In this document: positions 22,550 through 24,097 of the stretch, one piece after another
Position numbering within the stretch: the stretch's first letter is position 1
Layout: every line of letters begins with the position of its first letter
Source: Opitutales bacterium
GTDB lineage: Bacteria > Verrucomicrobiota > Verrucomicrobiia > Opitutales > UBA953
NCBI GenBank assembly: GCA_030725715.1
Contig: JANRFG010000018.1
Span: 214,485-278,484, forward strand
DNA length: 64,000 nucleotides
Direction: 5' to 3'
Notes under the pieces: generated by a model
The model's input: only the letters and a program-made list of their open reading frames with translations
What the model was told of the DNA's origin: nothing
Database searches by the model: none
Program-made: the position numbers and the translations under genes

Positions 22550-24097
22550 TCAGAGCGGGCGACGCAGCTTGCCGGCCGGGATCGGCCGCAGGGCCGTGAA
22601 GTCGGCGCCGATGGTGGTCTTCAGCTTATCCTTCAGTCCAGGCGGCAGCGACTCGACCGCCTCGATGAATTCCTTGTCGCCCGGGAAGGCCGTCTTACCG
22701 ACCTCGGCGACCGGGAGGCTGGCAAGGGCCGACTCGGGGAAGGCGAAGTCGGCACGGCGGGCGGAGTTGGCGGCTTCGTTCTCGGCGGACTCGACGTCAA
22801 GCGGAGGCAGGGAGTCCTCGAGGTTACCGGAGTCCTCGACCGGCACGTCGACGAAACGGGAAGGCGTGGCCACGAAGGTGGCGGGCGGCGCGACGGCTTG
22901 GACCGCGGGCGCGACCGGTTCGGCGACGGCCTCAGGGGCCGACGGCGTGGTCCTTATTTTTTTTTGGCCGGGCTCCCGAGGGAGACCAGCTGCGGCGGCG
23001 GCGATGTCTTTGATGAGCAGGTCTATCGACCGTGACCTGCTTTGCTCGATCGCCTTGAGCAACGTCACCTCGAAGTTCGCGCGGGGCGAGAGGCCTTGGC
23101 GGATGCCGTTCTCCCCTTCCTGCAGGCACTCCAAGAGGCGGACGAGCTGTTCGGTCGCCAGCGGCGCGCCGAGCTGGGCGGAGGTCCCGCCGGAGCGGAC
23201 GGAATCAAGGGTGGCGGCGCGGACGCGGACCTGGAGGTCGGCGAGCACGCGGAGCAGGTCGCGGCCTTCGGCGTGGAAGGCGTCGCAGAGCGCGAGGACC
23301 TTCTTGCCGTCGCCGGTCGAGATGCCCTGGCAGAGATCGGTGACCTGCTGGGCCGAGGCGAGACCGTAGATGGAAAGCACGTCGGCCTCGGTGATCTGCT
23401 TGCCGGAGAAAGAGATGACCTGGTCGAGGATCGACTGGGAGTCGCGCATGCCGCCGGCGGCGAGGCGGGCGATCGCCGTGAGGGCGTGCTGGTCGGCGGT
23501 CACGCCGTCGGCCTTGACGATGCGGGCGAGCTGGGCGGCGATGACCTCCTCGGAGATCGGGTGGAACTCCAGGCGCTGGCAACGGGAAGTGATGGTCGGC
23601 AGGACCTTGTCGGCCTCGGTCGTGGCCAGGATGAACTTCACCCAGGGCGGCGGCTCTTCGAGGGTCTTCAGGAGGGCGTTGAAGGCGTCCTTCGTGAGCT
23701 GGTGGACTTCGTCGATGATGAAGACCTTGAACGGGCAGCTCGTCGGCGAGAACTGGCACTCATCGCGGATCTTCTTGGCGTCCTCGATGGAGCGGTTGGA
23801 GGCGGCGTCGATCTCGACGACGTCGAGGCAGTTGCCCTGCTCGATCGCGAGGCAGACCGGGTCGTCGAGGGAGAAGTCCGGCTTGGGGCCGCCGGCGCAG
23901 TTCAGGGCCTTGGCCAGGATGCGGGCGGTGGTCGTCTTGCCGGTGCCACGCGGACCGACGAAGAGATAGGCGTGCGCCATGCGCTTCGTCTCGAGCGCGT
24001 TGCGGAGCGTCTTGACGATATGCTCCTGCCCGACGAGCTCGTCGAAGCGGCGGGGACGCCAGCGGCGCGCGATGACCTGGAAGCCGGGTGCAGACAC
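22550..24097 (-). CDS. dnaX: DNA polymerase III subunits tau/gamma
   Basis: 515 residues. AAA+ clamp-loader subunit: Walker A GPRGTGKT (48-55), FIIDEVHQL, the sensor region LATTEADKVLPTITSRCQ, and the domain III collar to about residue 370. A Pro/Ala-rich linker and a short tau tail follow. Of the four zinc cysteines only the outer pair remain (Cys67, Cys82, spaced as E. coli Cys64/Cys79); the middle pair are Ser76 and Asp79. Codons 378-381 contain nine A (22957-22965). Losing one A gives TAA at once, and a -1 shift gives TGA eight codons on, so a gamma form of 380-388 residues is predicted. It heads the operon with the phosphoesterase and hrpB. Confidence 0.95.
   Translation of the reverse strand: MSAPGFQVIARRWRPRRFDELVGQEHIVKTLRNALETKRMAHAYLFVGPRGTGKTTTARILAKALNCAGGPKPDFSLDDPVCLAIEQGNCLDVVEIDAASNRSIEDAKKIRDECQFSPTSCPFKVFIIDEVHQLTKDAFNALLKTLEEPPPWVKFILATTEADKVLPTITSRCQRLEFHPISEEVIAAQLARIVKADGVTADQHALTAIARLAAGGMRDSQSILDQVISFSGKQITEADVLSIYGLASAQQVTDLCQGISTGDGKKVLALCDAFHAEGRDLLRVLADLQVRVRAATLDSVRSGGTSAQLGAPLATEQLVRLLECLQEGENGIRQGLSPRANFEVTLLKAIEQSRSRSIDLLIKDIAAAAAGLPREPGQKKIRTTPSAPEAVAEPVAPAVQAVAPPATFVATPSRFVDVPVEDSGNLEDSLPPLDVESAENEAANSARRADFAFPESALASLPVAEVGKTAFPGDKEFIEAVESLPPGLKDKLKTTIGADFTALRPIPAGKLRRPL
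22951..22972 (-). promoter_or_regulatory. Slippery A9 recoding site in dnaX
   Basis: The minus strand reads GGCC followed by nine A (22965-22957), then TAAGGA, in frame as CAA AAA AAA ATA AGG. A GGGAG lies 7 bases upstream of the run, where E. coli dnaX has an SD-like stimulator. CGGCC-CCTGA-GGCCG about 15 bases downstream can pair. Polymerase slippage (known for A9 in Thermus thermophilus dnaX) or ribosomal -1 shifting on A-AAA-AAA would both end near domain III. Confidence 0.65.

Follow-up and report, generated by a model that had tools for sequence, protein, structure and literature searches.

The window, the whole 64,000-nt stretch of DNA analysed here, has a GC content of 66.7% and carries a dnaX gene with a GTG start codon, whose neighbours are guaA and the genes for a YfcE-type phosphodiesterase and HrpB. 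The predicted protein matches the NCBIfam model TIGR02397 (dnaX_nterm) with 384.8 bits against a cut-off of 250, and the Pfam match places the end of domain III at residue 352. Twenty-six residues further on begins a run of nine A in the context CAA AAA AAA ATA AGG, read as Q378, K379, K380, I381, and R382 (Table 1). The length of the run determines the predicted product, as A9 leaves the 515-aa tau frame open, A8 ends at 380 aa, and A10 at 388 aa, the last being also the frame entered by a ribosomal −1 shift. The first-pass annotation had described a slippery site after domain III, with these three products and an immediate TAA upon loss of one A, preceded by GGGAG ending 7 nt before the run and followed by a CGGCC/GGCCG hairpin beginning 15 nt after it, and all of these positions and frame lengths were reproduced. 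As in the Thermus-type arrangement, at least nine A lie in the sense strand after domain III, tau is in the genomic frame, and both other frames of the window meet near stops, although the position of the added-A stop varies within the genus. Since tau is in the genomic frame, the window does not have the reversed two-ORF arrangement of Antonov et al. (2013), in which the genomic frame gives gamma.

Table 1. Features of the dnaX locus (positions within the window)
Feature	Position	Strand	Basis or remark
dnaX, full-length tau frame, 515 aa	22550..24097	−	TIGR02397; PF13177, PF22608, PF12169
Putative gamma-giving region, domains I–III, ~380 aa	22957..24097	−	Pfam domains, frame lengths
Tau-specific C-terminal part	22550..22956	−	Homologous tails in order relatives, all three frame arrangements
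Candidate A9 slippage run, codons 378–381	22957..22965	−	Only A9/T9 of the assembly; 51/51 genus loci
TAA, stop of the one-A-deletion frame (A8, predicted 380-aa gamma)	22954..22956	−	Adjoins the run
TGA, stop of the added-A / ribosomal −1 frame (388 aa)	22932..22934	−	Position not conserved
Predicted 5′-adjacent RNA hairpin, GCUGG-U-CUCC(CUCG)GGAG-C-CCGGC	22967..22990	−	Fold, pair counts on 23 relatives, synonymous conservation
GGGAG, SD-like, within the 3′ arm of the upstream hairpin	22973..22977	−	51/51 genus loci; replaced in other genera
Downstream CGGCC/GGCCG hairpin	22927..22941	−	Present in window; 6/51 genus loci

The run is exceptional in its genome and conserved throughout the genus. 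It is the only A9 of the window, where 0.08 would be expected (at least one in 5 of 100 shuffles), and the sole A9 or T9 of the 1,927,859-base (1.93 Mb) assembly. Fifty-five genus genomes were searched and the site was assembled in 51, with no dnaX match at the site in G012, G024, G048, and G051; in 33 of the 51, the dnaX run is the sole run of nine or more A, both strands counted. Given the peptide QKKI and the codon use of genus dnaX, in which ATA makes up only 0.04 of Ile codons, the probability of CAA AAA AAA ATA is 5.6 × 10⁻⁴. The run is present in all 51 loci (A9 in 48, A10 in L114 and L128, and A11 in L118) and is adjoined on its 3′ side by TAA in 46 and TAG in 5; nowhere is it broken by the synonymous changes among close relatives that had been named beforehand as speaking against a programmed site. 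In L114, L128, and L118 (genomes G009, G003, and G010), the genomic frame gives gamma only, and the L114 protein is 98% identical to the window DnaX across its first part. Many loci of this analysis come from MAGs, and the three longer runs, each in a single MAG, may be assembly errors or real frame flips. A further frame change in the dnaX tail of L126 (G006), between residues 414 and 456 and away from the A-run, is probably an assembly indel.

Synonymous conservation, measured as identical codons among same-residue pairs in the 45 genus genes whose genomic frame encodes tau, had a mean of 0.535 across 481 11-codon windows. The best 12 windows, with values of 0.79 to 0.97, all lie within residues 367–388. 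A separate estimate of synonymous conservation was discounted at the run codons, where it arises partly by construction, its loci having been picked and aligned by the run. Per-codon conservation drops a few codons past residue 382, and this profile indicates that the conserved element consists of the run and sequence 5′ of it, and less of sequence on the 3′ side. Presence of the run in every genus locus and the peak of synonymous conservation around it support the original suggestion of a programmed site placed for gamma production, as far as genome comparison reaches.

The stops of the two other frames behave differently. Among the 48 A9 genus loci, the frame opened by loss of one A is closed immediately in every case, against a chance value of 0.0225. 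The added-A or −1 stop lies 3 to 100 codons off (median 11, chance median 24), with distances of 63–100 codons in 3 of the 48, and in L137 and L136 it is about 120 codons away or not reached. Across the genus, the earlier view that both alternative frames close early is thus borne out for the lost-A frame but not for the added-A frame, and the conserved early −1-frame stop of the E. coli type was not found among these 48 loci.

The comparison was extended to the order in two samples. The first comprised 155 loci, namely the 51 of the genus, all 24 found in other members of the family, and 80 others taken among the matches listed (207 of 223 genomes with a match), which were picked for different genera and few contigs with frame lengths already seen and runs unseen; the eight families with the weakest matches were left out of it. 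Runs of A8 to A13 at codons 368–396 occur in 151 of the 155 loci (A9 in 78, A10 in 66, A11 in 4, A8 in 2, and A13 in 1), all but L164, L193, L209, and L223, and 149 of the 155 have A9 or longer. Tau is read in the genomic frame in 84 of the 151, with one A fewer in 23 and with one A more in 44, tail homology having assigned the eight loci in which two frames are long (six to the genomic frame and two to one A fewer). Consequently, 67 of the 155 loci do not encode tau in the genomic frame and have the reversed arrangement of Antonov et al. (2013). The tau tail matches that of another genus, across arrangements, in 141 of 151 loci, and none of nine long alternative-frame tails does so. On the best DnaX tree (114 rows, including 14 of the 51 genus rows and excluding three suspect MAGs), in which many branches are weak, the arrangement switches at least 12 times. 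Few-contig assemblies switch too, as within family f20 the one-contig L218 needs one A fewer and the two-contig L221 has tau in the genomic frame.

For the second sample, 30 further genomes were searched, and 27 gave a locus. Six of the eight families left out at first are represented, and five of these six lack the run. A9 or A10 at codons 365–379 was found in 10 of the 27 loci (f4, f24, and f26), with tau reached by one A more in 8 of the 10 and the remaining two, L279 and L286, cut by a contig end. No run of nine was present in 17 of the 27 loci, from families f6, f7, f25, f27, and f28 with genomes of 0.7–1.3 Mb (L281–L285, L287–L289, L292–L294, L296, and L299–L303), shorter runs in four of these 17 not being counted as a site. 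Family f26 keeps the run though its genome size is similar to that of the run-less families. Over both samples, A9 or longer was seen in 159 of 182 loci, and of the 26 families sampled, 21 include at least one locus with the run. The run is therefore common in the order but not order-wide, having been lost or never gained in several small-genome families, and the proposed slippage mechanism does not rest on the run being universal.

Several individual loci illustrate the variety around the site. L193 (G232, f21) has no long A-run and its genomic frame ends at residue 380, at CTA AAA AAC GCC TGA with a tau-like frame at −1 and the heptamer A_AAA_AAC, perhaps a switch to ribosomal −1 frameshifting. 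L164 (G085, f8), with a run apparently eroded to A5 before TAG and an open tau in its genomic frame, may have lost the site recently. In L206, L226, L227, and other f14 loci, a sequence resembling CTGATTGA follows the run and brings both non-tau frames to a stop only a few codons on. The base 3′ of the run in the first sample is T in 99 of the 107 loci with tau in the genomic frame or with one A fewer, and G or C in 41 of the 44 one-A-more loci. Beyond the order, 12 loci picked from other orders of the class had no run of nine or more A within codons 345–445. Such a run was found in 9 of 28 loci picked from other classes of the phylum, and six planctomycete loci (L100, L104, L105, L109, L110, and L111) have A9 or A10 at codons 387–404 with tau in frame and the other frames closing soon. 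The putative slippage device is either old or recurrent, because runs also occur in other classes of the phylum and in planctomycetes.

The conserved 5′ flank is predicted to form an RNA hairpin of 9 bp with one U·C mismatch, whose 3′ end lies 1 nt ahead of the run, so that, as in the Roseiflexus IS630 and IS1447 elements, a predicted stem-loop stands directly 5′ of the slippage motif. The 26 nt 5′ of the run fold at −16 kcal/mol (z −2.66, equalled by 1 of 200 shuffles; −13.9 in a Python fold), and the 41 nt on the 3′ side give a z of only −1.07. This hairpin was absent from the first-pass annotation, which had treated GGGAG as a separate Shine–Dalgarno-like (SD-like) part; GGGAG is indeed kept in all 51 genus loci, but it lies in the 3′ arm of the hairpin, and other genera keep the stem containing this position and not GGGAG itself. 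The downstream CGGCC/GGCCG hairpin fared worse. It is conserved in only 6 of 51 genus loci, and its role as a stimulator was rejected, and with it the presence of a conserved 3′ stem-loop of the E. coli type. Rfam holds a dnaX element family, and a search of matches up to an E-value of 10 returned no dnaX element, only two unrelated weak matches.

In loci with tau in the genomic frame of f1 (the window's family), f20, and f23, the hairpin ranks at or near the top of the 26-nt windows of the gene in stability (median rank 0.0 in each; n = 62, 5, and 1); weaker stems or none are seen in most of genus g4 and, within the same family, in L151 and L153. An alignment of 23 of 28 hairpin-lineage sites (L005, L017, L026, and L221 dropped for a repeated 26-mer and L201 as out of register) has 87.0% of its cells paired against 15–52% when slid, a value favored by the choice of rows from lineages where the stem had already been seen. 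Three pairs, in 6 cells, have changes on both sides. The covariation score and the share paired were matched by none of 500 shuffles, the number of covarying pairs by 32, and the pair types by 397, and an automatic consensus fold retained 5 of 10 pairs and is weaker than the counted structure. A share of 0.149 (15%) of synonymous versions of the window fold equally well, because the peptide alone favors a stem. With synonymous codon shuffles of 23 loci, a set that includes one-A-more loci, 11 were more stable than all but at most 3%, ten of them being L023, L140, L144, L147, L148, L141, L160, L218, L166, and L234 and the eleventh L227, of the one-A-more class. The share was 0.04 to 0.28 in the other hairpin-lineage and mixed loci and 0.67 to 0.97 in three one-A-more loci.

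We propose, with a probability of roughly 0.7, that dnaX is decoded by RNA polymerase slippage, A9 transcripts giving tau and A8 transcripts giving gamma, with the 5′ hairpin as a helper. RNA polymerase copying the T9 template would yield mRNAs mostly with A9 and some of other lengths; those with A9 (also 9 + 3n) would encode the 515-aa tau, and those with A8 would stop at the adjacent UAA and give the 380-aa gamma. The nascent-RNA hairpin of 9 bp, one nucleotide ahead of the run, would sit where the RNA leaves the RNA–DNA hybrid, which is 9–10 bp long as described in PMC5009743. The genomes directly show the run with its stops and the sequence of the hairpin, how far these are conserved, and that relatives exchange three arrangements. 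From this, we infer that slippage occurs, mainly by deletion and driven by the hairpin, and that the cell makes and uses both proteins. Whether recoding is ribosomal or transcriptional had been left undecided at first, and the genome comparison narrows it to probable transcriptional slippage with a 5′ hairpin. Three points favor transcription. The frame arrangements interchange among relatives, and a change of direction among orthologs is a published sign of transcriptional realignment, as set out in PMC3711429; run lengths match the RNA–DNA hybrid and not a 7-nt heptamer; and the deletion frame closes immediately in 48 of 48 loci, with the insertion or −1 stop spread over 3 to 100 codons.

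Ribosomal −1 frameshifting of the E. coli type on A_AAA_AAA, aided by GGGAG and the downstream hairpin and giving a 388-aa gamma, is improbable, although it survives best among the alternatives. The heptamer A_AAA_AAA is present in frame within A9, GGGAG is conserved throughout the genus, SD-like elements 8–11 nt upstream are described as stimulating −1 shifts (PMC6321510), and the −1-frame stop is somewhat nearer than chance. Nevertheless, few genus loci have the downstream hairpin, the −1 stop is distant in some loci and perhaps lacking in L137 and L136, relatives reach tau from both directions, and runs of A9–A10 exceed what a heptamer needs. The lack of an Rfam dnaX match and the drop of synonymous conservation within a few codons 3′ of the run also speak against it.

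Slightly less probable still is the absence of recoding, with A9 as a remnant of a Lys-Lys-Ile linker or as a tract subject to phase variation and with tau as the only product, or a proteolytic gamma as known in Caulobacter (PMC5009743). The A10 and A11 runs in 3 of 51 genus loci resemble tract drift, and the four first-sample and 17 second-sample loci without a run of nine imply that the order can live without it. Against this stand codons conserved at A-only synonyms and the 67 loci in which the genomic frame is without tau, yet the tail is homologous in nearly all. We give the least credence to ribosomal +1 frameshifting, in which tRNA-Lys would slip from AAA to AAA at a waiting AUA to reach UAA and the same 380-aa gamma, stimulated by the upstream hairpin or an SD duplex: re-pairing on the run would be perfect, ATA is rare, and refolding upstream hairpins are described as stimulating +1 shifts in a 70S in vitro system (PMC6321510), but ATA is already demanded by the TA(A/G) stop adjoining the run, the same source describes the effect only without RF2 and none detected at an A6G site, and a +1 shift cannot account for tau in the 44 order loci that require an extra A.

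Within transcriptional slippage, it is possible, though doubtful, that the 5′ hairpin of Opitutales sets the sign of slippage, polymerases losing an A with it and gaining one without it. The hairpin lineages (the window's, f20, and f23) might then lose one A, whether gamma or tau is genomic; with similar reserve, the lineages without the hairpin (f11, f14, and f21) might gain an A. The genomic frame would drift freely between arrangements, as the other frame would always be available from slipped mRNAs, and dnaX, if this is true, would tolerate frameshift mutations at the run. Among tree rows with tau in the genomic frame, those with the hairpin have a deletion-frame stop within 3 codons in 35 of 35 and an insertion-frame stop in none, and the 15 of 50 without it have 6 and 3, respectively. 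Taking genera without correction for kinship and including three suspect genus MAGs, upstream structure exceeds synonymous controls where tau needs one A fewer (p = 0.002, n = 11) and where it lies in the genomic frame (p = 0.006, n = 20), whereas genera needing one A more show no such excess (p = 0.24, n = 33); one A fewer differs from one A more at p = 0.009 and the genomic frame from one A more at p = 0.06. Under a strict threshold, the hairpin is found in only 6 of the 21 rows that need one A fewer and in 5 of the 43 that need one A more. A test of hairpin against direction on independent pairs had no power (median p of 1; 10 pairs on supported branches, of which a mean of 0.9 were informative), and the link between hairpin and deletion is confounded by kinship. 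Known systems differ in direction, as the Roseiflexus element is described with deletions only (PMC5009743) and the Thermus A9 in E. coli with mostly insertions (PMC6260861). A hairpin need not impose a direction, because deletions about equal insertions in IS1447.

The gene, the run, and the principle are already known from Thermus thermophilus dnaX, where transcriptional slippage at A9 was reported by Larsen et al. (2000), as described in PMC1088944, PMC5009743, and PMC6260861. According to these descriptions, gene and run length are the same, tau is in the genomic frame, gamma comes from slipped mRNAs, and stops are near; slippage there is mainly A insertion, whereas in the window the deletion frame is the one closed immediately, and the descriptions mention no 5′ hairpin such as the window has. 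Reversed dnaX genes have been known since 2013 (Antonov et al. 2013, PMC3711429), which describes 17 genes from 12 genera, each shifted by −1 at the DNA level, with gamma in frame and tau by realignment, and proposes a transcriptional mechanism. Most share the A-run after domain III, but tau is in frame in the window, and three arrangements interchange among its relatives in the order. E. coli dnaX resembles the window in gene, products, A-rich site, and SD-like element; as described in PMC5009743 and PMC3711429, it differs in its A6G motif, ribosomal mechanism, early −1 stop, and 3′ stem-loop, the last two of which are not conserved here.

Hairpins 5′ of slippage motifs are described in transposases. 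In IS1447 (Liu et al. 2018, PMC6211511), a stem-loop is followed by A9 and then T, as in the window, and A8 transcripts read the alternative frame; 9 A8 and 8 A10 were reported among 52 cDNA clones, with A9 in 30 of 30 genomic clones. Unlike the window, this is a mobile-element gene of Firmicutes in which slippage is about equal both ways and seven A suffice, and its description does not show that the hairpin is required (PMC6211511). The Roseiflexus IS630 element (Penno et al. 2015, as described in PMC5009743) also has a hairpin directly 5′ and a one-nucleotide deletion, but it is a transposase gene with a heteropolymeric T5C5 motif, in which mismatch limits also set the direction. A literature search of titles and abstract starts, with subscription papers and supplements outside it, found no report of a 5′ hairpin at a dnaX run, of the window's site, or of the interchange of three arrangements. 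The proposed hairpin-coupled dnaX form, common to many related families, thus seems to be new.

If the proposed slippage is true, a nascent-RNA hairpin as a slippage helper, otherwise described in transposons, would act in a cellular gene. The relatives offer a natural experiment, with and without the hairpin, with deletion or insertion frames, with tau or gamma genomic, and with the run kept or lost, by which the direction of slippage becomes testable. For annotation, 67 of the 155 first-sample genes would look truncated or frameshifted because their genomic frame ends before the tau tail, although nearly all of them have conserved that tail. Polymerase slippage would then be a fixed mode of expression of a cellular replication gene in most sampled families of a bacterial order.
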